From: a virus
Length of the DNA: 29,759 bases
Direction: 5' to 3' (one strand)
IMG/VR virus record: IMGVR_UViG_3300008050_009173
Location: 1 to 29,759 of that record
Shown here: positions 1 to 29,759 of the stretch, in pieces
Layout: each line of letters starts with the position of its first letter
How positions within the stretch are numbered: the stretch's first letter is position 1
Program-made: the position numbers and the translations under genes
The notes under the pieces: generated by a model
Told to the model about the DNA's origin: nothing
Database searches by the model: none
The model's input: the letters and a program-made list of their open reading frames with translations, nothing else

Positions 1-801
1 ATGCAAGAGCAACTGCTGATGAGTCAGTATGGCATGGGCCAGGACGATGCATCCAGGACGCTAGAGATGCTGTCAGAACTCGATGATGCTCGCCGGTCTG
101 GAGACTCCGGCGCTGTAGCGGCCCTAGAGGCTCAACTTAGTGAGTCGCGAACCGCGGTGGACGAGACCTTGGACGAAACCAAGAAGATATCTCTCCACAC
201 TGGAAGGCTAGTCGCCATGGCCCAGATTGCACAGATAGACAACATAAGGGGCCTTAGGGGGCGGGCTGGGGATGACGCCCGTCACATCGAGAGTGCCATG
301 CGAGCCCTATTTAATCGCGTTGCCGAAATGGGCGGCGATAGCGACCAAGCCGCCATGGCAAATAGAGACTGGGACCAGATGAGCGCCGTCATGGGAAACC
401 TTAGAGGTGTCGATAGTTCAGACGACCTCGACGCAGCTGAGAGCGCGATAGTTTCCAACGCAGAAAGGACCCTCAGTAACCTAAATGAGGCCGGCGATAT
501 GTCACCGGAAGAGCTGGATATGCTAGATAGATTAAAAGAACGGGTTGGGGAATACACGAGGAATGGGACATACATAGCACCGAATAGCCAGGAAGCAGAA
601 GCTGCAGCCCTCGCCGGTCGCAGCGGCACGTCCGGAAGTGGCTCGAGTGGGCGCAGCGGATCCAGCTCCGACCTCGCCTCATCTATGAATCGGCTCAGCC
701 GAGCCCTCGAGAATCAGCCACAAAGAGTGGTAGTAACACCCGCCAACAGCCTGCTGGCGCTAGTTGAGGCCGCCGGCGTCCCCGATGGTGGCTCACAATG
801 A
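1..801 (+). CDS. Possible C-terminal part of tail tape-measure protein (left edge, start uncertain)
   Basis: The frame is open from base 1 to a TGA at 799-801, giving 266 residues. The first codon is ATG, but nothing upstream is visible, so it may be an internal methionine of a longer protein. The sequence is mostly predicted helix with many Ala, Glu, Asp and Arg. It then has a Ser/Gly/Arg-rich low-complexity linker (about residues 205-225) and a short C-terminal piece ending in a hydrophobic helix-like stretch (TPANSLLALVEAAG). A helical protein just upstream of hub and spike genes is where myoviruses place the tape-measure protein, which sets tail length; this assignment rests on position and composition, not on a family signature. 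It could instead be a tail chaperone or an unrelated structural protein. The stop overlaps the next start by 4 bases (ATGA), which suggests translational coupling. Confidence 0.4.
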   Translation: MQEQLLMSQYGMGQDDASRTLEMLSELDDARRSGDSGAVAALEAQLSESRTAVDETLDETKKISLHTGRLVAMAQIAQIDNIRGLRGRAGDDARHIESAMRALFNRVAEMGGDSDQAAMANRDWDQMSAVMGNLRGVDSSDDLDAAESAIVSNAERTLSNLNEAGDMSPEELDMLDRLKERVGEYTRNGTYIAPNSQEAEAAALAGRSGTSGSGSSGRSGSSSDLASSMNRLSRALENQPQRVVVTPANSLLALVEAAGVPDGGSQ

Positions 802-1769
802 CCAGAAAGATAAATTCAAGCTTTACGCAGACAAGAGAAACTATAATGTTTTTCCTTCCGACATATTTGACGGAAGATCAGTCATCAGATCCGGCCACGG
901 GTGTTCCGATTTCATATGGGGAGGACGGAACTTTCGGGAAGGACGCGAAGGTTATGTACCTAAATCCCCAAGAGTTTAATATATCAGAGAAAAAAGTTAT
1001 TTCATCTCAAATGACAAAGGGCGGGTATATGGTCCAATATTGGGGAGAGGAGCTTCCAAGTATAAACGCCAGCGGAACAACCGGCTCAGCAGGAATTGAG
1101 GGTATAAATGTACTAAGAGACATCTATCGTCATGAGCAGATTCATTTTAGAAAAGTTTTAAAGCATAGAGCCAGAGAGGCTGCTAGTAAAAAAGCAGCAA
1201 ATGATGCGCTAACTAATGCCATAGAATCCCAGTCAAGGGACGGATTTGGGGGTTTTATGACTAACGCAGCTGACCTGGTCACCGGCGGAGCCTGGTCGCA
1301 GACTGTGAATGGATTTAGTAATGCAATAGATATGATTGGGAATGCATTTTCTGGAGCCACCCCCGGCGCCGGAGAGCTAAAGACATCGTCATTTCTTACG
1401 GCACCAACTTTGGCGTCATTTGCAACTCAGGTCGATATGTACTACCAAGGGGAGATGTTTCGCGGGTTCTTTTTAAGCTTCAACGTAAAAGAATCCGCAA
1501 CGAGTCCCGGCTTGTTTAATTATGACTTTAGCTTTACTGTAACGCGAAGGACTGGTGTTCGAGAAAACTTTATGCCATGGCATCGCAAGGCTCTCGGCCC
1601 AGACGGCAAAACTAGAACTGCCACTGAGCCAAATGTCAGCGGAGATGAGTTTGATTATAGGGGCTCAAATAAGAGCATAGAAATAAGTGAGCTAAGCTTT
1701 GAAAGCAATCTGTCAAGGGGAATTTTGAAGCCAATTAGGATTAAGATCGCCGAAGACGGAGACGAATAA
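798..1769 (+). CDS. Tail/baseplate-junction structural protein, function not established
   Basis: The product has 323 residues and starts at the ATG overlapping the previous stop; a GGTGG lies 6-8 bases upstream. Residues about 50-110 (LNPQEFNISEKK, then TKGGYMVQYWGEELPSI and an SGTTGS turn) look like a motif I remember from tail-tube-proximal or baseplate proteins of large phages, with an 'NPxxF ... GG-hydrophobic-QxWG ... SGTTGS' pattern. A central part (about 110-195) is helical and Ala-rich. The C-terminal part (about 205-320) is beta-rich, with DMYYQGEMFRGFF and alternating beta strands. In myoviruses and related injection systems, proteins between the tape measure and the hub commonly join tube to hub (T4 gp48/gp54, LysM-type gp53-like proteins). 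No LysM motif is obvious here. Placement upstream of the hub supports a tube-hub adaptor, but this is inference. Confidence 0.5.
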   Translation: MTRKINSSFTQTRETIMFFLPTYLTEDQSSDPATGVPISYGEDGTFGKDAKVMYLNPQEFNISEKKVISSQMTKGGYMVQYWGEELPSINASGTTGSAGIEGINVLRDIYRHEQIHFRKVLKHRAREAASKKAANDALTNAIESQSRDGFGGFMTNAADLVTGGAWSQTVNGFSNAIDMIGNAFSGATPGAGELKTSSFLTAPTLASFATQVDMYYQGEMFRGFFLSFNVKESATSPGLFNYDFSFTVTRRTGVRENFMPWHRKALGPDGKTRTATEPNVSGDEFDYRGSNKSIEISELSFESNLSRGILKPIRIKIAEDGDE

Positions 1770-18991: not shown

Positions 18992-19423
18992 ATGTCGTTC
19001 GATCTTAAGATACAGAATGGAGATCTAAGGCTTGTAGCGGGGGGTGGGGTAGATACTGTTGCTGAAAACTCTAAGTTAAAGCAAGATCTTATAAAGATAT
19101 TATTAACCCAAAAGGGCAGCGTAAAATATCATAGAAATTATGGTAGCATAATTGGCGCGCTAAGGGTAGGTCACTATACTGATGAAAATATGATGTCCAT
19201 GGAAATAATAGCATCGGCAAAATCAGCTATTAAAACTCTAATTGCAATGCAAAGAGCACAAGAGAGGCGGCAATTTTTATCTCCAGGCGAGGCAATAGTT
19301 GAAATTAGAAATGTTAACGTAGGCAGGGACCTTGATGACCCAAGATTATATAATATATCCATTTCAGTTATTACCAGAGAGCTAACAGAGGTTAGTGAGT
19401 TTATAACCGTAAGGTTAACATAG
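18992..19423 (+). CDS. Baseplate wedge protein, gp25/gpW-like
   Basis: The 143-residue product fits the length of the gp25-like family (about 110-145 residues). After a short beta start (FDLKIQNGDLRLVAGGGVDTV) comes the typical helix-turn KQDLIKILLTQKGSVKYHRN followed by YGSIIGALRVG, matching the family pattern of a helix, 'L-x-T-x-x-G', then 'N-x-x-Y-G' and a glycine. The C-terminal half has helix SAIKTLIAMQRA and beta strands ending ITVRLT. gp25-like proteins form the core of each baseplate wedge and start sheath assembly. The next gene is a gp6/gpJ homologue, the normal partner in P2, T4 and contractile injection systems. Its TAG stop overlaps the AGG of the next ribosome site, so the two are probably translated together. 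Confidence 0.88.
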   Translation: MSFDLKIQNGDLRLVAGGGVDTVAENSKLKQDLIKILLTQKGSVKYHRNYGSIIGALRVGHYTDENMMSMEIIASAKSAIKTLIAMQRAQERRQFLSPGEAIVEIRNVNVGRDLDDPRLYNISISVITRELTEVSEFITVRLT

Positions 19424-19432: not shown

Positions 19433-22400
19433 ATGGCATCATTTAGAACATTTAGCGAAGTAGTAGCAACGATGTTGGAAAGATTAAGATTGGTTCAGCC
19501 AAATCTTGATACCAAGCCCGGATCTGTATCTAGGGATTTGTTTGTAGATATTCAGGCGGACCAAATTGATCGGCTATATAGAACGCTGGCGGCAATATCT
19601 GAAAAACAATCTTTGGCCTCAACCTCTGGTGCGGATTTGGATATGCTTGCATCAAATTTTGGGATAACAAGAGCGGCCGGAGCGTTAGCATCTGGGGTCG
19701 TTATTTTTGCTACAAATTCGATTTCTACTGATATCCTAATTCCATCTGGAACGACCGTTAGATCTAGAAATGGCGTTTCGTTTTCTGTAATCGGCAATTA
19801 TGCAATGACCCCATTTGAGAAGGGAAGGTTCGCAGCAACGGCAAATAGGCTTAGAAAGTCACTAAATATAGCGGGAATAAATAGTAAATATGCGATTGAA
19901 GTTCCAGTTCAGGCAACACGCCCCGGTACTGCCGGAAATGTTGCATCTCTTCAGATTATAGAATCAAATGTTGGATCCGGAGTTAATGTTGTAAATTTAA
20001 CCTCGCTATTTGGAGGATCAAACGTAGAGGTTGACTCCTCTTTTCGTGCAAGGATTTTGTCTATATTTGGAGGTTCAAATACCGGAACATCTTCTGGGTA
20101 TAGAAGCGCAGCGCTCAGCTCTCCGGGAGTTCTGGACGCGATAGTTGTGGAGCCGGGAGATACACTCATGTCGAGAGACGGAACAGAAACTATAGAATTA
20201 GACGGCGGTGAGAGTCGAATTTTATCTTCTGGAACTGGCGGAAAAGTCGATGTATACATTCTCGGAAAAAATATAGTGGAATCTTCAGAGTCATTTATAT
20301 ATACAGATCTATCGGGTAGTGGCGGAGCTAGTGATGAAAGAAATGATGTAATTCTCGGGCAAGCCGGGCAAGACCCAACAAGGACTGCATCGGAGCGTAG
20401 AGTTTTGGCATTTAAAAACGGAAACCTTCCATTTCAGCCGGTCGATTCGATAGTCTCTATTGTAGGAAGCCAGTCGGGGGTCTTCGCGGAAGAATCTACC
20501 GATGAGAATGGGGTGTCCTCTGGAAATTATAGATTAGTGAAAGATCTGAACCCAGAAACAGGCGGAAGCCCGTTTGGATTCGATTCGATTCATTTTATAT
20601 CCGGAGAGAAAGAGGTTCTTGGGGAAATAGTTTCAAAGCCAAGTCTGAATAGTGCTGATGCTCTGAGATATACCGATATGTCCGATATGGGCAGCGTATA
20701 CCAGGATATTAGAATAATAGGAGAAAACTCATCTATATCTATATCTGGAAGAGATTATATCCAATTAAATCACTTTCCAGTTACTAGCGTTTCTTCTATA
20801 AAAAATAAAACAACGGGTGAGACCTATGTGGTGGGCCGCAGCAACAGCTTGTCTGGCGGCGGATCGGAGACCGGGCTAATAAGAATCGAAGGCCGGAGCC
20901 TTCCAAGCTCATCGGACATTCTTGAGGCGGCGTATACATGGAGAAAAAGATTCGATAAGTATATCGATTATGATCATGTTGATAATGAGCGCAGCTTATT
21001 CGATGATTCAAAGTCTGACGTCATAGATTGGGCGCTAAGCAATGGAATCTATAAAGAATCCGCAATAATAGAAAAGACCAGCGATGGCATAGAGTATATA
21101 GTTTCCACCGAGCAGCAAATAAGTAGGGTGGTTTCTGTTTACTCAGTATCCACAATAGACGGAGCCATAGGGGGCGTCCCAAGAGATGGAGTCTTGGGGG
21201 CAATCGGGATAGATCTTGGCGGAGAATACCCCGACATAAAAAATGTTGAGTCGGTGATTACCTCGACTGGGGTCGAAGTTTATAATACAAAAGCTTCAGA
21301 TGGCGGGTTTGCATCTAACATCATATATTTGCCATCGGATTCTCCGGCGACTGCCGGAGAGGCTGTGACTGCGTTCTTTAACAAGGTAGAGTTATTTGAC
21401 ATCGAGGGCGGCAATGGATCGTTCGGCCTAAACTCAATAACTCTTCCTTCCGAGGACATATTATCGGAGGCGCAGGTATTAGACCTCGTAGACGAGACGG
21501 AGCAGTTGGGTTCGGATATTTTTGTAAAATACGTTGCAGAAATTCCAAATATTATTGGCGAAGTGTCCCTGGAGGCGCTGCCGATCCTCGGCTCTGACGT
21601 TTCTAACTCTCTATTTTCTTCTGTAACGTCTGATAGTGCCCAGGGTATGCAGCCAATATTTTTTGACCACGCCTCCGGAGGTGTTTCGAGATTTGGGCCA
21701 GCACAACTAGCCGTCTCGGTGATTGGTGCAGGCTCTCCGGGAAAGATCAAGATCGCAGGAGAAACCCTGACAAGATTTGATCTAGATTTAACCGCAGGGC
21801 TATCAATTGACGGCCTGACAATATCTTTAAAATCAGAGCTCGAAAGCTTCTTTGGGGGAACAATTCCGAATGGAGTGGGCATCGCCAGAATTGATTCGGC
21901 ACAGCTGTTGTCCTCTAACATGACTCTCAGGTTAAAATATGATATTGCCGGGGCGGGCCTGTTGAGTGCGAAATATAGTCCTAAAAAATCTTTCTATGCG
22001 CCGTCTCTTGAGGCGTACAACGTGAGCCTGCCATCCACTCCAAATAACTCTAGTGTTACGGCGATTTCAGGCGATATTATTAGGGTTAGCGTCTTGGTTT
22101 ATAATGACCAAGATGTCGAAGAGCTATATTTTTCAGGGTCTGGCAGTAGCATTACAAATAAAAGATTTGGATTAATAAACAGAGTATCTGTATCATCTGG
22201 ATTTAGAGCCTCGACTGGATTGCTTTCCGGATCTATTTTGATAGATTCCATGAGCCAGCCGGGAAGCAATGATATATATTATGCAGATTACTCTTTTGTA
22301 GCCCCCAAGGAGGGGGAGAGAATAACTATATCTTATAATGTTAATGACGTAATATCTTCTGCAACTAATGCAATCGAAAGTGTTAGGCCAATAACGGCAG

Positions 22401-22741
22401 ATGTTCTCGTAAAGTCTGCAGAAGAGTTATCTATAGATGTATCTGGAACTATAATGATTAATGAAGATTATATACTTAATGTAAATTCCATAATCGAGGA
22501 TGTTTCGAACAATATAACTAACACGTTAAATTCTTCGAGACTCGGGTCCGTGGTTGATTACAGTGATCTTATATCTTCTGCGGCCTCCGTTAAGGGTGTC
22601 GACTCAGTTGATATATCTATGTTTAATGAGTCTGGACTTGGCGGAAGAAAATCATTTATTAAAGCTCTAGATAATCAGTACATCTCTCCCGGATTAATAC
22701 TTTTTGAGGCAGTTTTACGAGAAGAATTTAGGATAAGTTAA
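19433..22741 (+). CDS. Baseplate wedge protein, gpJ/gp6-like
   Basis: The product has 1,102 residues, against about 300 for P2 gpJ and 660 for T4 gp6. The N-terminal part matches the baseplate-J family: helix FSEVVATMLERLRLV, then PGSVSRDLFVDIQADQIDRL, SGADLDMLASNFGITR, beta segment DILIPSGTTVRS, the PGTAGNVAS turn near residue 166, and a conserved DSSFRARILSIFGG helix leading to SSPGVLDAIVVEPGD. The C-terminal end (VLVKSAEELSIDVSGTIMI to VKGVDSVDISMF) also resembles the family's terminal domain. Between them lie several hundred residues of inserted beta modules, one of which (about 447-500, HFPVTSVSSIKNKTTGE) is also found in the next gene. The protein dimerises around the gp25-like core to close the baseplate ring in known systems. 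The next gene starts 2 bases after its TAA. Confidence 0.85.
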   Translation: MASFRTFSEVVATMLERLRLVQPNLDTKPGSVSRDLFVDIQADQIDRLYRTLAAISEKQSLASTSGADLDMLASNFGITRAAGALASGVVIFATNSISTDILIPSGTTVRSRNGVSFSVIGNYAMTPFEKGRFAATANRLRKSLNIAGINSKYAIEVPVQATRPGTAGNVASLQIIESNVGSGVNVVNLTSLFGGSNVEVDSSFRARILSIFGGSNTGTSSGYRSAALSSPGVLDAIVVEPGDTLMSRDGTETIELDGGESRILSSGTGGKVDVYILGKNIVESSESFIYTDLSGSGGASDERNDVILGQAGQDPTRTASERRVLAFKNGNLPFQPVDSIVSIVGSQSGVFAEESTDENGVSSGNYRLVKDLNPETGGSPFGFDSIHFISGEKEVLGEIVSKPSLNSADALRYTDMSDMGSVYQDIRIIGENSSISISGRDYIQLNHFPVTSVSSIKNKTTGETYVVGRSNSLSGGGSETGLIRIEGRSLPSSSDILEAAYTWRKRFDKYIDYDHVDNERSLFDDSKSDVIDWALSNGIYKESAIIEKTSDGIEYIVSTEQQISRVVSVYSVSTIDGAIGGVPRDGVLGAIGIDLGGEYPDIKNVESVITSTGVEVYNTKASDGGFASNIIYLPSDSPATAGEAVTAFFNKVELFDIEGGNGSFGLNSITLPSEDILSEAQVLDLVDETEQLGSDIFVKYVAEIPNIIGEVSLEALPILGSDVSNSLFSSVTSDSAQGMQPIFFDHASGGVSRFGPAQLAVSVIGAGSPGKIKIAGETLTRFDLDLTAGLSIDGLTISLKSELESFFGGTIPNGVGIARIDSAQLLSSNMTLRLKYDIAGAGLLSAKYSPKKSFYAPSLEAYNVSLPSTPNNSSVTAISGDIIRVSVLVYNDQDVEELYFSGSGSSITNKRFGLINRVSVSSGFRASTGLLSGSILIDSMSQPGSNDIYYADYSFVAPKEGERITISYNVNDVISSATNAIESVRPITADVLVKSAEELSIDVSGTIMINEDYILNVNSIIEDVSNNITNTLNSSRLGSVVDYSDLISSAASVKGVDSVDISMFNESGLGGRKSFIKALDNQYISPGLILFEAVLREEFRIS

Positions 22742-22743
22742 AA

Positions 22744-25700
22744 ATGTTATTAAGACCAACTCATTTTACGGTTACATCTAGTACTGGGATAAAGATCGTA
22801 TTCACCGACAACGTATCCGACAAGATTTCAGCCAGTAACTTTACGATAACATCCCTGGGCGGGAATATAGATGACCTGGAGATATTGAGTGTATCGGTAA
22901 AAGATAAGAGCATAGAGATAAAAACCAGACCACAGGTTTCTGGAAACTTTTATTTACTTAAAATGATTGATACTGACGACTCTCCATTTTCTTCAGAGAG
23001 GGGCGCGTCTTTAATAAATGATGATAACTCAAGAGAGATCTTTTTTATAGGAATTGACTCATATAATCCGATTCGCGATAGAATTTTCGAAGAAGTTCCG
23101 CATCTATATAGCCTAGAAAATACATTAATAAAAGATATAGTTAGCTCCCAAGCTGATGAAATATATAAGGCCCAAAAGCACATCGGAGAGGTGTTAAGCG
23201 ACAACTACATATCAGAAACTGTAATTAACGAGCTAAGAACAAGAGGCGCGGGCGCCACAGACCGCCTTGGAAACGAAGGATCGTATAGTGTGGATAGGGT
23301 TTCGAAGATTCCCGAAGGCTTTCCGTCGAGATTCGGAGCAATAGACCTGTCTTCTGGCGGAGAGGCGAGGGAGGGGGCTATGCCATCAAGCGGCCCAGTG
23401 TCGCTCCGCAGGCGAGTGGTAAGCGTAGACATTAGTGAAGATACAAGTGATGGCGAATTTGATGGATATTTAATTAGTCTTGCAAATAAGAATATAATAA
23501 AATTATTGTCCCTAGCGCTCATAAAGGAAAATGATATTTATGATTGCAATAATGAAATAGGAACAGATTATAATATAGAAAGATATAAGTACTCCATACT
23601 GGATAATAAATATGATCGAGAACATTCTCTTTCTTACTTTGAGTTGAAATCAAATCAAATTTTAATATCTGAGTTTGGAAATATAGACAAGCCACGACCC
23701 GGCGATAAGTTAATAATCTCTTATGCGTTTAATGACTTTGGAATTGAGGTGTCGGAAGATTCAGTTAGTGTATTTAACGTAAAACATGTGGCAAAGGAAT
23801 CGATTCCAACCAATATTTCTAGATTCTTTTTGTCTAATGCTCCGATTGTTTTTTCTAATAACGAAGTTGCCGAGATTGGCGGGGTTGCATTTTCACATTC
23901 ATCCGGAGAGCCGGGGCTTCCAAGTGCATTTTTAAAAGAACTAAAGTTTAATACATCAAGACTCCCGATGCTGGAGGGCGAGTACTCGATAAATTACGAA
24001 ACCGGAGAGGTAATAATCGTTGGAGACGGGGTATCTGGAACTGGGTCTAAAAGCCTCGCTGCGCAATATTACTATAGAGACGTATTTGAGAATAATTTAG
24101 ACTATTATGTTGATGGAGGAGATGTTGTCGCCAGCAAGGTGAGAGATCTCGGCGGCCAAGAGGTGAAAATAGAATTCTCTTACGGAGAGGTATTTTCAGA
24201 GGGAGATGATTATAGAGCTCCATGTCACGAGGAGGTCTCGGCCGAGCATGTGGAAAACAACTTTACGTCGTCTTTCTCGGTAGAGACGGCGCATCAGCCG
24301 ATAACAAATGTATTTAGAATTGTAAACCAAACAACGGGAGAAGTATATAAAAAACTATACACTACCGATACGGAAATCCATTTCACTGGCCGAACTCCTC
24401 CAAAGTTTGAGTCTAAAAAATCAGAAATGGCAGAGTTCCTAAAGGTTGATGCAGAAAAAATCGAGCCATTCGAAGAGTTTGTCTCTCCGGCATTTAAGAC
24501 TACGGTTGTATCTGGAGGTTCAAATAGTAACATTAAGATCAAGCCGGGCATCCCGGCAGAGCTGATCGACGAGAACTCAAAAGAATACTTTATAAGAGGG
24601 GAGTCCGATTCGGACGATCTGCCGATTCAGTTTTTTGGCTCCCCCGACTCAGAGGGCGTGATAAACTCTGTTGGAATATCCAACTCCTTGTCGACCCCCA
24701 TGCTGGGCTCGGAAGTGATTATTGGGCCAAGAGTTATTTCCATGGCTCTTTCAAATATTGGCATTTTAAATAAAGAGCTTGACGCCATGGGTGTCTTTTT
24801 TAATTCATCATTATCTTTTTCCAAAGATGATGTATTTATAGAAGAGAGGTTCTTTTCTCCGCTTTCATCTGATTACGACATCAACGAGGCATCAAGATCG
24901 GGGTTTGTATCGTCGGTTTTGTCTAAGCGCGGCGATAAATTTTTTGAGAATTTATCCAGGATAACTCGCGTTGGAGACTATGTTGTTGATTATGCGCATG
25001 GAGTTGTATATCTTGGAATCAATAAGAGCCAGGACCCCCTCGCGCTTGGAACGGCAAAATATAGTTGCTCAAAGATTATAACCAAAAACCCCAACCTATT
25101 AAGCTCGGATCAGATCGCAAAGAAAAACAGAGCTTCTGATTCGATTAAAAATGCAGCCGTAATATATGAAGATTTCTCTCTTGATTCCAATAGTATATCA
25201 CTAATAGATCTAGAGCCATCATTTGAGTCTCCGGAGATTGGAAGTACATTTAACTCTCACGGGGAGGCGGTTTCTGCTGCAACTGTTCTCGGCGACTATA
25301 CGGTTGCCATGATGTCCGATATAAGACAGATAAATGGAATTTACTTAAAAGAATCAGTTGTAGGCGCTAGCCTTGATAGCAGGTACAGATCCAAAAGAAA
25401 ATCGGCCCTCGATGCTTCCTTGTTAACCTCCTTTGTTTCGGACGGCGGCGGAAATATTTATAACGCCTCACATATGAAGATCGACGCCAATGTTATCGAT
25501 CTAAAGAGGCATGATAGTCGCTACCTGATAGAAAAAGATGGGACTTATAGTATAACGGTAAAAGATTCAAATATTAGCAAACTATTATCAATAACCTTGT
25601 CCAAAACGGGAGAAGAGCTGTTTGATGAGAAGCTAAATGTAACAAAAATCGACGATGTTGAAATAGTTTTCTCCAATTCTTTCGATGGCATAGCCTCGGT

Positions 25701-28700
25701 CGGAATTAGGAGCGGAAGCATAAATTCATCAATAGATAACCTAGAAGATTTTCTGCTTGATTCGGATGGAAATAGGTTCGAAATAAATAACTTTGACAGC
25801 CTGACATCAACGCTTGACGTCTTCTCTCCTGCAGTAAATAACGTAGAGGCGCAAGAGCCGACAGTAGGAGCGGGCGCGAAGATCATTGTAAAAGCCACTG
25901 TAGACATCTATGAAGATAGAATGGAGATATTAATTCCGTCGGATGCCGCCGTTGCAAATGGAGATATGGTAGATATATCTTATATCGATAGCAACATCCC
26001 CGAGCCCGGAGATAGTCTCATTGTGGATTATAGGTACGGGAAGATCTTTTTAGATTACTCGTATGTTGCTGACGATATCTATGTATCATATGAATATGGA
26101 GATAATCAAATTGACTGGTCCATCTCCAATGCGATGATCGAGGGGCAGGATTATTATGTATCATACAAATACGGAGCGCTCAGGGATGCTCTGAGGAAAA
26201 ACTTCGGAAACCTAACTGATATACCATTTTTCAAAGACTTCTCTATGTCGACAGACCGCGAAACGTATAGAAGCGCGCTACTGGGGACGCTAGAGGCATT
26301 TACATCTGGGCCGACCGTCCCGGCGTTCAAATCATTGATAGAATCGTTCACACTGATTGAGCCGGAGATAACTGAGTCTCATTTTGGAAACTGGATTCTT
26401 GGGCGAGACTACTTATCTCCGGGTGGAGTTGAATACAGCGGTGTTCTGGATTTCTCCGAGGGTCGATTTGGCTCAGGGCTGATGATAAATGATGATAATA
26501 TTGTTAAAATACCCTCTGATTCAAATATTTCAATAGAAGAGGGAACGCTATCTGCATGGATTCGTCCGGAGTGGGCAGGTATAAATAATGATGCAACCTT
26601 AACGATTAACTTGGATGATATCGGAGAAGATAGGTTTTATTACAATACAACCACGGATCCGTTTAGCCTCAAAAATAAATTTGAATTATTCGAGATATCC
26701 AACGCTGTTGGGACTATAGATTACTCTGGAGATGGAGTCTCTATATCGAACTACAAGATGGTATACGACGAATCTGGACTAGAGAAGGTTTCGTCCGGAG
26801 AGTTTGGGCTAAAGAAAAGCCCACCGGCCCTTTCTCATTTTGGCCCACTTAGGCTCGATACGAGCATAAGAGTTGATACCTTCTCCCTTCCCGAAGCGCT
26901 TGGACATTCTACAGATATATCCCATCACATGTCCGATTTGGACTCTAATTGTGTGGCCGCAATTTCTATCTCTGATAATAATAAATCTCTGCAGATTCTG
27001 CTTAATGTGAAGCCGGTAAGGGATTCCGATGGAAATATTTTAATCTTCGAGACGAAAGAAGAGCATATTGATGCGGTGGAGTATCCGTCATACGAGGGGC
27101 CGTACCCCATACGAGGATGTGTCTGCGCTGTTAGCAATGTTATTGATAATCTTTTGGACTTTAGAAATAAAGACACCCAGGTTATAAGAATTGAGTTGGA
27201 CCACGAGATCGATCTTTCGTCATTCCTGAACAAGAATTTCCTTATCGATGAGTCCCCGTCTGTACTTCAGATCGTCGACTCAAATGGCGGGATATATGAG
27301 GTGTATGCGTTCTTGGATCTTGCAGGAAGAACGGTAAGGGGCGGAATTCCGACCAAAATTGGCGGATTTATTATCGAGAGAATCCCCGGAAATATGCAGC
27401 ATCTTAGCGCCGCAGGGTCGAAGGCCTTGAACGATTACCTTCCGATTGGAAGATTAAGAGTTGTGGCTCAATCTGTCTCCATTCCCCTCGCAACCAGCGC
27501 TTTGTCTGAAGAAATTTTTAATTTTGAGAATATGGACTACCTATTAGATTGGAGCTCTGGTCACGTCAATGTAACAACAGATCATAATCCATTAGATAAC
27601 GTTGTCTCTGTGTTGCTAAAGACGCACCTAAATGCCGGAAAGAAAGCTCAAGTTCTCTACTCGGATCTTATGTCGCATAGCGACTCATCATTTGGGCACG
27701 GAATCTCCATATCTGCTCCAGATAGCATGTGCCAGTCTGTATTTAATATAGGAAAATATAATTATTCCATAAAAAATAGGTTTGGATTGGAAGACATATT
27801 TATTGGAAAGACCGCAAGAAACCCCATGCGTATGCCGTTTTCTGTAAACAAAGATGATTTTCCGCTCGTGTCTTCTGGTCTTCCTCATAATGCGGATGTA
27901 AGCGAGGGGATATTTATAGGCTTCGATGAGACCTGCGAATCACCGCTGTCTGAAGATGCGGGCCAGTGGGTTATTAGGAGTCGAATAGATAAAAATGTAG
28001 TAATTCCATCTGGAGCGTTCCCGATATACGACGATTTCTCCCTGGAGTTTTCCAATCCCCCGGCGGAGTTATCTTCGTTTTTTGCCGCGGGGCTTGTAAA
28101 GTACATTAATGTATTCGGGATTCATATTTTCTCTACGAGCTTGGCTTCAAGCGAAAAAGTCCTGCACGTTGCAAATGTTCTTGCCCAGCTCTTGGATAAT
28201 GACGAAGACGGTCATCCTGATAATAAGCTCGTTATTCAAAATTTGACGGAAAGAAATTCATATATAATAGTCTCAGAAGATAGAGGCGATTTTGACTCAC
28301 TTGAGTCAAGAATTTGGGAAGATAAAGAGTTTAATACTGGTATTGTAATATATTCAAATGACATCTCGGACGAAGCTGTAGATCCAACGACCAGAATGGT
28401 GTGGAGTTTAATAGGTGATGTGGGCTATTCAAATACATACCCGGACAAGTTTGGGCTCTTCGTCGGATCGGAGCTGACAACCGCCATGAATACGGCGCGG
28501 GGAGGATATTATCCTATAGTTCCGGCTGTATACCCGATATCATCGTGGTATCATGATGATAATAAAAATTGTGATTTTGAGTGTCAGATTTCTAAATATT
28601 TATACTGGGGAATATCTTCTCTTCTGGGCGAGTATAGCGAGAATGAAGACCTAATCTCTGAAGAGTGGGAGATTACAAGCAAAGATCAGCTCATGGCTAC

Positions 28701-29759
28701 TGACCCCGCCCTGTATTCTCTCGTCATCAATTCTGATTTTGGCTTCCCGTCAATACTTCCGGATGGAAGCTACAAGGTAGACCGAGCGGTTCGATCGTTT
28801 CAAAATACATTTGAAGAAATTCATTCAAATTATGGTATTTCAGGAAAGGTTACAACAAACGGTGAATTTTCATCGGTACTGAGGGCGAGAAGAAGTGAAG
28901 ATGAAAACGGGTGTCGTATTGGAGCTGTGTGCTCCTCGGAGCTCAGATACTGCGGAGACGGACTGATAGAGGAGTCTGGGTGGAGAAACATCAGGGAGAC
29001 GCAGTCTGAGCTAATAAACGTCATAACCGGAGGGTCGTCCCTGGAGTCAATCCCGTGGGCAAAAGTTGGTGATTTTTCTACCAATGAATCCGGAGGAATA
29101 TATAGAATGAGCGGAGGAGGGCTCTCCGGTGGAGATGAGCTTATTTATTCAAGCCTCCCATGCTCCGGCGGTGAATACTCTGCTTCTGTATTTTTTCGAG
29201 CAAATTACATCGATCAAGCCGGCGGGTCCGAATTTGATGGTGCAATTTCTGGTACGTTTTCCGGAATGATTCCAATTGAAATCGGCGATGGATCAATATC
29301 TATTAAGATCGCCCTAGCTCATGCTAACTTCGGAACTCCACTGGCTGTTATTATGGACGGAGTAGATAACTCCATTTTGGACATAGTATATTTGGACTGG
29401 ATATCTAATGAGTTTATCGGACTAAGCGTAGATAAAGATTTAGATGGAAATATAACAATAAGCGCAGACAGCACAATTTTGTCAAGGCTTGCCGGGTCAG
29501 ATTTTAATGATGCCAATCTGGATGACTGCGATCTCCTGTCCGAGCCATACATTGCGATAAGATGGCTTGACTCATCTGTTTTCGAGCCAGCCTCAGAAAG
29601 ATCTTCCTCTCTGGATTTATCCCTAGTGTCCTTTGAGGGAAGGCACGAGGAGAGGGTGAGTACGCTAGAGAGCAATGATATATTTATAAATACTGATTCA
29701 AAGGTTTTGTTCTCCTTCTTTGCGGGAGAGCCGGCCCTGTTCGTGGATGGTTACGCCGA
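22744..29759 (+). CDS. Giant peripheral baseplate/tail adhesin protein, 3' end cut by window edge
   Basis: The frame is open from ATG 22744 to the window end, 2,338 full codons without a stop; the C-terminus is missing. An AGG (22730-22732) lies 11 bases upstream inside the gpJ-like gene. Residues about 100-165 (DRIFEEVPHLYSLENTLIKD, then helices) follow gpJ in the position of gpI/gp7-type wedge proteins, so a fused gpI-like start is plausible. Beta modules with a Y-x-[IV]-x-Y-x-x-G pattern occur near residues 411-430, 744-760 and 1088-1144. A helical unit (about 1145-1210) includes LGTLEAFTSGPTVPAFK. A LamG-like domain starts near 1232. A conserved phage region begins near 1720 (DETCESPLSEDAGQWVIRSR) and resumes near 2030 (YCGDGLIEESGWRNIRETQ), with a distinct domain between them (about 1786-2012). 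The likely role is outer baseplate structure plus carbohydrate or surface binding. Its domain mix and size fit an adhesin, but receptor binding is inference. Confidence 0.6.
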   Translation, partial: MLLRPTHFTVTSSTGIKIVFTDNVSDKISASNFTITSLGGNIDDLEILSVSVKDKSIEIKTRPQVSGNFYLLKMIDTDDSPFSSERGASLINDDNSREIFFIGIDSYNPIRDRIFEEVPHLYSLENTLIKDIVSSQADEIYKAQKHIGEVLSDNYISETVINELRTRGAGATDRLGNEGSYSVDRVSKIPEGFPSRFGAIDLSSGGEAREGAMPSSGPVSLRRRVVSVDISEDTSDGEFDGYLISLANKNIIKLLSLALIKENDIYDCNNEIGTDYNIERYKYSILDNKYDREHSLSYFELKSNQILISEFGNIDKPRPGDKLIISYAFNDFGIEVSEDSVSVFNVKHVAKESIPTNISRFFLSNAPIVFSNNEVAEIGGVAFSHSSGEPGLPSAFLKELKFNTSRLPMLEGEYSINYETGEVIIVGDGVSGTGSKSLAAQYYYRDVFENNLDYYVDGGDVVASKVRDLGGQEVKIEFSYGEVFSEGDDYRAPCHEEVSAEHVENNFTSSFSVETAHQPITNVFRIVNQTTGEVYKKLYTTDTEIHFTGRTPPKFESKKSEMAEFLKVDAEKIEPFEEFVSPAFKTTVVSGGSNSNIKIKPGIPAELIDENSKEYFIRGESDSDDLPIQFFGSPDSEGVINSVGISNSLSTPMLGSEVIIGPRVISMALSNIGILNKELDAMGVFFNSSLSFSKDDVFIEERFFSPLSSDYDINEASRSGFVSSVLSKRGDKFFENLSRITRVGDYVVDYAHGVVYLGINKSQDPLALGTAKYSCSKIITKNPNLLSSDQIAKKNRASDSIKNAAVIYEDFSLDSNSISLIDLEPSFESPEIGSTFNSHGEAVSAATVLGDYTVAMMSDIRQINGIYLKESVVGASLDSRYRSKRKSALDASLLTSFVSDGGGNIYNASHMKIDANVIDLKRHDSRYLIEKDGTYSITVKDSNISKLLSITLSKTGEELFDEKLNVTKIDDVEIVFSNSFDGIASVGIRSGSINSSIDNLEDFLLDSDGNRFEINNFDSLTSTLDVFSPAVNNVEAQEPTVGAGAKIIVKATVDIYEDRMEILIPSDAAVANGDMVDISYIDSNIPEPGDSLIVDYRYGKIFLDYSYVADDIYVSYEYGDNQIDWSISNAMIEGQDYYVSYKYGALRDALRKNFGNLTDIPFFKDFSMSTDRETYRSALLGTLEAFTSGPTVPAFKSLIESFTLIEPEITESHFGNWILGRDYLSPGGVEYSGVLDFSEGRFGSGLMINDDNIVKIPSDSNISIEEGTLSAWIRPEWAGINNDATLTINLDDIGEDRFYYNTTTDPFSLKNKFELFEISNAVGTIDYSGDGVSISNYKMVYDESGLEKVSSGEFGLKKSPPALSHFGPLRLDTSIRVDTFSLPEALGHSTDISHHMSDLDSNCVAAISISDNNKSLQILLNVKPVRDSDGNILIFETKEEHIDAVEYPSYEGPYPIRGCVCAVSNVIDNLLDFRNKDTQVIRIELDHEIDLSSFLNKNFLIDESPSVLQIVDSNGGIYEVYAFLDLAGRTVRGGIPTKIGGFIIERIPGNMQHLSAAGSKALNDYLPIGRLRVVAQSVSIPLATSALSEEIFNFENMDYLLDWSSGHVNVTTDHNPLDNVVSVLLKTHLNAGKKAQVLYSDLMSHSDSSFGHGISISAPDSMCQSVFNIGKYNYSIKNRFGLEDIFIGKTARNPMRMPFSVNKDDFPLVSSGLPHNADVSEGIFIGFDETCESPLSEDAGQWVIRSRIDKNVVIPSGAFPIYDDFSLEFSNPPAELSSFFAAGLVKYINVFGIHIFSTSLASSEKVLHVANVLAQLLDNDEDGHPDNKLVIQNLTERNSYIIVSEDRGDFDSLESRIWEDKEFNTGIVIYSNDISDEAVDPTTRMVWSLIGDVGYSNTYPDKFGLFVGSELTTAMNTARGGYYPIVPAVYPISSWYHDDNKNCDFECQISKYLYWGISSLLGEYSENEDLISEEWEITSKDQLMATDPALYSLVINSDFGFPSILPDGSYKVDRAVRSFQNTFEEIHSNYGISGKVTTNGEFSSVLRARRSEDENGCRIGAVCSSELRYCGDGLIEESGWRNIRETQSELINVITGGSSLESIPWAKVGDFSTNESGGIYRMSGGGLSGGDELIYSSLPCSGGEYSASVFFRANYIDQAGGSEFDGAISGTFSGMIPIEIGDGSISIKIALAHANFGTPLAVIMDGVDNSILDIVYLDWISNEFIGLSVDKDLDGNITISADSTILSRLAGSDFNDANLDDCDLLSEPYIAIRWLDSSVFEPASERSSSLDLSLVSFEGRHEERVSTLESNDIFINTDSKVLFSFFAGEPALFVDGYA
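26434..27000 (+). other. LamG/concanavalin-A-like domain in the last gene (right boundary approximate)
   Basis: Residues about 1231 onward read SGVLDFSEGRFGSGLMIND, then VKIPSDSNISIEEGTLSAWI and RPEWAG. This is the usual opening of LamG-like jelly-roll domains: '[FA]-x-x-G-[RK]-F-G-x-[GA]-L', a short 'V-x-[IV]-P' strand, then 'G-T-[IL]-[SE]-x-W-[IV]-x-P'. The fold binds sugars or proteins in many secreted and phage tail proteins. The second half is less clear; a long insertion may lie between about 1300 and 1400. Confidence 0.65.
28099..28773 (+). other. Embedded secreted-protein-like domain with presumed metal motif lost
   Basis: Residues about 1786-2010 contain INVFGIHIFSTS, KVLHVANVLAQLLDNDEDG (1806-1824), a D-x-D-G loop, RMVWSLIGDVGYSNTYP (1884-1900), TARGGYYPIVP, SSWYHDDNKNCDFECQ with C1943 and C1947, and ATDPALYSLV...FPSILPDGSY (2010). 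From memory this pattern matches an unnamed family in secreted proteins of bacteria and marine eukaryotes, where the central helix reads like EEVLHLITHVGY. Here the E, H and H positions appear as M1885, S1888 and D1892. The family assignment is from recollection and could be wrong in detail. Confidence 0.5.

Follow-up and report, generated by a model that had tools for sequence, protein, structure and literature searches.

A candidate pseudo-gluzincin domain at one site of a giant, baseplate-linked phage protein

The subject of this work is a virus record in the IMG/VR collection, IMGVR_UViG_3300008050_009173, analyzed over its entire length of 29,759 bases (hereafter, the window), in which the large open reading frames (ORFs) are all co-directional, and specifically a domain in the middle of its giant gene, P0001. 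This domain is homologous to a family of cellular proteins that carry an EExxH motif, and it has lost the motif along with the other residues of the presumed active site. We consider it reasonably probable that this is a captured peptidase-fold domain, present at one site of a giant baseplate-linked protein, that has lost its activity and been retained for binding or as a spacer. The domain would have been captured from an uncatalogued, mostly secreted or lipid-anchored bacterial family with a gluzincin (zincin-like metallopeptidase) fold, and it sits at one fixed position in a protein of ~3,480 residues encoded after baseplate J, in phages several of whose records exceed 300 kb. In the window phage the site residues are replaced, as are the majority of the other acidic residues and tyrosines that are invariant in the family, with the CxxxC pair, an acidic loop and the core of the structure kept under purifying selection. 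As the site residues are replaced and the core is kept, the domain most likely neither cleaves nor binds metal at that site, and its part in the adsorption apparatus would be that of a spacer or a binding module.

A cellular family with an invariant EExxH motif

Relatives were collected by scanning bacterial and archaeal genomes with a CDxxC-YW DNA pattern, which returned at least 119 loci, and the ORFs at 115 of the 119 loci listed proved to be relatives of the phage domain (phmmer E-values of 6e-15 to 4e-57). The phage profile did not recognize the remaining four loci, and 15 of the 115 were partial; the other 100 cellular domains were aligned, and these are the comparison set for residue conservation. 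Alignment A2, from which the family profile and the column numbers below are taken, was obtained from the 100 by removing two sequences with X, thinning at 85% identity (82 left) and omitting the three longest (79 left). The search pattern required C, C, Y, and W in the CxxxC-YW stretch and accepted D/E, F/Y, and E/K there, with K permitted at E172 and F at Y166, and it excluded the EExxH, E92, Y159, and D161 columns.

The A2 profile matches the phage domain over model positions 5-236 of 238 (211.8 bits). The phage segment scores 219 bits with this profile versus 7.0 for the best of 1000 shuffles, ruling out a chance resemblance. The initial annotation of this DNA, made from the sequence alone, had connected the domain with a family of secreted proteins of bacteria and marine eukaryotes through a series of ordered motifs, all of which are found, in frame, in the ORF starting at 22744. 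The link to a cellular family is supported: the profile search and the alignment to cellular homologues give a significant match, with E and H invariant there and absent in the phage, and a crude pattern scan points to a secretion signal in 110 of 134 rows, of which 49 have a lipobox. The phage copy, sitting inside a 3476-residue protein, carries neither a secretion signal nor a lipobox, and while homologous to the EExxH family it does not appear, by its sequence, to be an active-type member.

The relatives occur in many bacterial genomes and metagenome-assembled genomes (MAGs), one MAG being labelled Euryarchaeota. In genome samples that include the centre genomes, the family was found in 2/296, 6/398, 23/296, 24/246, 1/240, and 12/249 genomes; the 2/296, 23/296, and 12/249 samples are nested, the match in the 1/240 sample is the centre itself, and the 6/398 sample comprises three strong matches, the others being weak and one probably false. 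Judging from these counts, the family is broad but patchy.

In the databases searched, neither the family nor the phage domain has a significant match by sequence. A Pfam scan of the 79 members gave stray matches only (17 families, one member each, best E-value 0.0066), and the family profile matched no solved chain by sequence, the Pro-Pro endopeptidases (PPEPs) included (best E-value 0.24). Pfam, PHROGs, NCBIfam, and PDB gave no significant sequence match, PHROGs and NCBIfam being queried with phage proteins only. Among 50,697 phage records and 72,556 plasmids, there was no match to the window domain (E-values up to 1) or to locus L044 (E-values up to 0.1). A first genome scan with the window protein led nowhere, and term searches of an open-access library listed no paper on this family or insertion, although such searches do not establish that none exists.

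In remote relatives the motif is either EExxH or EHxxH. Such loci include L195, L196, L200, L141, L145, and L146, several of them encoding larger proteins. An extra region common to L043, L143, L195, and L196 has what we take by eye to be a ClpP/crotonase-type likeness, the L143 copy being unmatched in Pfam and PDB; the extra regions fused to L143 and L009 likewise gave no useful matches in these two databases. One intact-type member (L128:136-843) lies near the end of a 16.6-kb contig from a viral collection, and this may be host DNA or a cargo gene.

Loss of the site residues

EExxH is present in 100 of the 100 aligned cellular domains. The window phage has R1884-M1885-x-x-S1888 in its place, and its 74% relative, L005, has K, L, and S at these positions. 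Window residue N1916 stands where 97% of the family has D, and further replacements are listed in Table 1; one of these, K1951, lies on a model helix of residues 1945-1961. The initial annotation had described an ExxHxxxH-like set whose counterparts here were M1885, S1888, and D1892. Its first two residues stand, E and H being found in all 100 cellular domains and absent here, but the third is not conserved: position 1892 is H in 39% and D in 15% of the cellular family, and D1892 was rejected as a lost residue because of this lack of conservation. The list of losses was also incomplete, as residues 1873, 1884, 1916, 1938, 1940, 1945, and 1951 are replaced as well.

Much of the domain is kept, including the DNDEDG loop, the CxxxC pair, the GY, YP, ARGG, YW, and EW motifs and the PDGxY end, and the invariant framework of G, C, C, W, W, and P is intact, along with the EW motif, in both the window and L005. 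The family profile produced only weak matches to EF-hand (best E-value 0.24).

As to the selectivity of the loss, a later set, in which 166 of 214 domain matches were long enough and 139 of them distinct, was reduced to 133 distinct cellular rows by taking out the remote L195, L196, and L200, the bacterial homologue L142 (see below) and two phages; one of the 133, L128, comes from the viral-collection contig. In these rows, 47 columns are at least 90% conserved, seven of which are the presumed site columns (E92, E105, E106, H109, Y159, D161, and E172). All seven are kept in 131 of the 133 rows and two rows change one, although in some rows as many as 10 of the remaining 40 conserved columns are not matched. 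In the window phage seven of the seven site columns are changed versus 5 of the 40 others, and in L005 six of seven versus 6 of 40. The Fisher values (1.3e-5 for the window, 5.3e-4 for L005, and 2.7e-4 for L142) are descriptive only, because the columns were chosen post hoc, and the row-to-row comparison is fairer.

The replacements in the window and L005 are identical at S1888 and K1951 and alike in charge at 1884 (R/K), whereas they differ at 1873 (D versus V or N), 1885 (M/L), 1938 (D/N), and 1940 (N/D). The tyrosine columns Y159 and Y166 are both lost in the window, L005, and L142 (to D or N, and to F), and they are V and A in another phage, L253; in a further one, L221, Y166 alone is kept.

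Predicted fold

AlphaFold models of the phage domain and of a cellular member have mean predicted local distance difference test (pLDDT) scores of 92.5 and 96.7, respectively. In VIA-align comparisons, PPEPs came first for both, with a Z score of 8.9 for the cellular model (root-mean-square deviation, rmsd, 4.3; 147 residues aligned) and 8.0 for the phage model, the latter after trimmed realignment (PPEP-2; rmsd 4.0; 145 aligned). Gluzincin-type proteins make up all of the rows listed for the cellular model (50 entries: PPEPs, lethal factor, M9 collagenases) and nearly all of those listed for the phage model, among which are also M1 aminopeptidases, Certhrax, and a putative hydrolase. Gluzincin metallopeptidases belong to clan MA, and PPEP-1, PPEP-2, and PPEP-3 are gluzincins of peptidase family M34. 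M9 collagenase peptidase domains were the best Foldseek match for both models, at about 11% identity, and these matches are not significant (E-values of 0.083 for the phage and 0.015 for the cellular model).

In the cellular model, EExxH lies on a long helix (103-119) following a strand (85-89), and the invariant E172 lies on a helix of residues 166-181. Because both models are closest to gluzincin metallopeptidases, chiefly the PPEPs, we take the cellular protein to be a probable zincin-like peptidase in which Glu stands for the first His, and the metal would presumably be held by E and H of EExxH and by the invariant E of the later helix. The metal-binding look that the initial annotation ascribed to the EExxH helix agrees with the metallopeptidase-like fold indicated by model comparison. 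Where a gluzincin would show HExxH and a downstream Glu, the cellular family shows EExxH and a later invariant E, and the phage domain shows neither.

One precedent for the use of such a fold in binding is the N-terminal region of lethal factor, a degenerate copy of the peptidase fold. Most full-length lethal-factor rows align with the phage model over chain residues 29-254 (Z up to 7.4, rmsd 5.4, 173 aligned) and with the cellular model over residues 556-774, the catalytic part, with the caveat that rows with a Z difference of <1 are tied and that both regions appear for both models; a similarity in sequence was neither found nor looked for.

The plan of the cellular family is similar to that of PPEP-3, in which an edge strand and an active-site helix with HExxH are followed by helices carrying Tyr190 and the third zinc ligand, Glu197 (PMC12828418). 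In the cellular family, either Y159 or Y166 might take the part of the tyrosine. This family differs from the PPEPs in its EExxH, which stands in place of HExxH, and in its CxxxC pair and acidic DxDxDG loop; the phage domain lacks the site. Pseudopeptidases of metallopeptidase families likewise keep the fold, lose catalytic residues and act through protein interactions; the families named in the available part of that source are cellular, with no phage tail domain among them (PMC11266112). The status of the phage domain as a pseudopeptidase would be conditional on the assignment of the cellular family, by fold and motif, to the peptidases. Zincin folds are also described, in the accessible portion of another source, in very large phage proteins, the polyvalent proteins, as HExxH-type and presumably active domains, whereas the window domain is baseplate-linked and has lost the site (PMC5512222).

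Carriers and empty sites

A scan with the aligned baseplate J pair returned 79 loci, including three contigs already known, and a scan with two phage domains added one further carrier. Segment 1761-2014 (about 254 residues) is missing from the giant protein of 28 related contigs, a number of which are near-identical: the segment columns are missing in over 70% of the 28 in the junction alignment (MAFFT), and blastp alignments of P0001 with the empty contigs end at 1755-1784 and restart at 1994-2034. Records of 332, 335, and 395 kb from this empty-site group contain no copy anywhere. The segment is 100% identical in two further contigs, one of which, L002 (316,664 bases), has no second copy of the domain.

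Five distinct phages possess the domain at the same site (the window, L005, L221, L223, and L253). It is degenerate in four of them, with the H and the later E gone in all four, and L221 and L253 are degenerate in other ways than the window and L005. The fifth, L223, retains E92, EE at 105/106, H109, and the following GY; its contig ends there, and a search for the missing half of the domain returned the same contig only. In L253 (19606-22044), about 813 residues are inserted inside the degenerate domain, an insertion within an insertion for which Pfam and PDB offered nothing.

A phage tree that omits L238 and includes the other 27 empty contigs, 25 of them different, has the carriers in three places, requiring at least three changes. 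In the domain tree, a single phage clade has the higher likelihood and is not rejected (p_AU, approximately unbiased test, 0.857). An intact domain may have been captured, after which several lineages lost the site and others the entire domain; repeated captures at this slot would fit too.

The losses are paralleled in a cell. L142 (G038, contig C1 816951-817652) is a free-standing, lipoprotein-like homologue, grouping by sequence with Flavobacteriaceae, in which six of the seven site columns are changed versus 5 of the 40 others. Its nearest relative is an intact Aquimarina member (L087, 57% identical), and when ordered by identity to the two phages it comes 43rd and 63rd of 138. A joint clade of L142 and the phages is not formally rejected (p_AU 0.273). 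From its sequence, L142 looks like an independent cellular pseudoenzyme.

Genomic setting

The gene containing the domain takes its place in a baseplate cluster, right after baseplate J (Table 1). Its full length can be seen in two relatives, where the protein, counted from the preceding stop, has 3476 residues (L002) and 3484 residues (L001), and its C-terminal part in L002 includes a Laminin_G_3 match (E-value 1e-10).

Table 1. Coordinates of the features in the window
Feature	Position	Strand	Remarks
Tail-tube-initiator-like protein, weak match	798..1769	+	PF23980 E 1e-4, below cut-off
Sheath initiator / gp25-like baseplate protein	18992..19423	+	PF10934 below cut-off; phrog_2669 E 2e-12
Baseplate J / baseplate wedge subunit	19433..22741	+	PF04865 E 8e-26; phrog_6 E 6e-43
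Giant gene P0001	22744..29757	+	directly after baseplate J; continues past the window end
Inserted segment	28024..28785	+	P0001 residues 1761-2014; MAFFT junction alignment and blastp
Putative pseudo-gluzincin domain proper	28096..28776	+	P0001 residues 1785-2011; A2 profile 211.8 bits
Acidic DNDEDGHPDN loop, kept	28195..28224	+	residues 1818-1827; EF-hand/dockerin-like spacing
D1873	28360..28362	+	E in 99/100 cellular domains
Helix residues 1881-1898	28384..28437	+	EExxH helix of the cellular family; here R1884, M1885, S1888; model helix 120-137
D1938 and N1940	28555..28563	+	Y and D, respectively, in 100/100 cellular domains each
C1943/C1947 pair kept; F1945 and K1951	28570..28596	+	F1945 and K1951: cellular Y and E, 100/100 each

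Three observations concern the wider setting. Baseplate J shows a distant similarity to gp188 of Bacillus phage G (31.6% identity across 36% of the query), which suggests a possible remote kinship between this phage group and phage G. L001 and L002, identical over the domain, differ in the copy number of a short DGY-type repeat just past position 29759. 3' of the giant gene in L002 (15134-20704) are a 1517-residue ORF with a dockerin-like stretch just under the cut-off and a glycosyltransferase-like ORF.

Weighing the possible roles

Between the window and L005, the domain is 73-74% identical and the compared protein 79%, and the rate of nonsynonymous substitution (dN) in the domain is about 0.155; the ratio of this to the synonymous rate (dS), about 0.06, is rough because dS is saturated. 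On these sequence comparisons the domain does not look like one in decay, in line with the early impression that it was otherwise intact. Given the Laminin_G-like stretches in the same protein, its place by the baseplate and the fact that pseudopeptidases generally work by interaction (PMC11266112), a role in adsorption, whether as a binding module or as a spacer, appears most likely.

Several points weigh against the scheme of capture, inactivation and retention. The saturation of dS is one of them, and the choice of the seven site columns after the losses were seen is another. The contig end of L223 removes the C-terminal half of its domain, including the presumed third ligand. L142, a cellular homologue, has lost the site too, so that the loss of E and H is not special to the phage copy; homologues lacking these residues are, in part, what the initial annotation had named as counting against its own reading. 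Foldseek gave no match at an E-value of 0.001 for either model, VIA-align Z scores of 8-9 are near the range that this program calls common, and the phage model reached 8.0 solely after the trimmed realignment, none of 997 chains being at Z ≥8 before; the fold assignment therefore rests on the uniformity of the matches and on motif logic. Finally, a rooted tree with the phages outside all cellular rows is the likelier one (p_AU 0.731; three remote outgroup rows), possibly as a result of long-branch attraction. Transfer from cells, as suggested initially, would thus be indicated by the distribution (28 empty-site contigs and a carrier with intact EExxH), not by the tree, which does not nest the phages.

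Of the alternative roles, the one to be taken most seriously, although we consider it rather unlikely, is that of a stable spacer or a scaffold for folding, by which the protein would be made longer or other modules put on display, without any specific binding. The 28 related contigs evidently manage without the domain, and the degenerate domain of L253 bears its ~813-residue insertion in the style of a display platform, both of which would suit such a scaffold. The identity of S1888 and K1951 in the two close phages and the conservation of the domain, nearly equal to that of its flanks, speak for something more specific but do not exclude a spacer.

We see little probability in a decoy or competitor of an active homologue of the host, one that would bind its substrate or partner. 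Pseudopeptidases do act through protein interactions (PMC11266112), and intact homologues exist in many bacterial genomes, but possession of the family by the host is unsupported, and a virion protein is badly placed for titrating an enzyme. An active site of another kind, built from the replacement residues, could be imagined from the likeness of the window and L005 at 1884, 1888, and 1951, in charge or identity; it is made very improbable by their differences at 1873, 1885, 1938, and 1940 and by the yet other residues of L221 and L253. A functionless, decaying passenger, as might be supposed from the fact that four of five carriers have lost the site and 28 related contigs lack the segment, is equally improbable given the open frame, the 73-74% identity, the low dN versus saturated dS, the confident fold and the retention of 35 of the 40 other conserved residues.

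Returning to the retained binding or spacer module, it can be placed in a wider scheme that we offer as tentative and as less probable than not: this jumbo-phage group would maintain one docking slot for an EExxH zincin-like domain, which in some members would be an active protease trimming host surface proteins at adsorption and in others a non-cutting receptor binder.

Implications

If this scheme is true, it would present a natural series from protease to adhesin within a single phage gene. As L142 has lost the same residues, the sequences suggest that the conversion may have occurred more than once. The domain also draws attention to a presumed peptidase family, without a significant Pfam match in any of the 79 scanned members, and to its apparent capture by giant phages whose relatives still show the empty site. 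The matched carriers with and without the key residues make the question of enzyme versus adhesin in phage tails a testable one.
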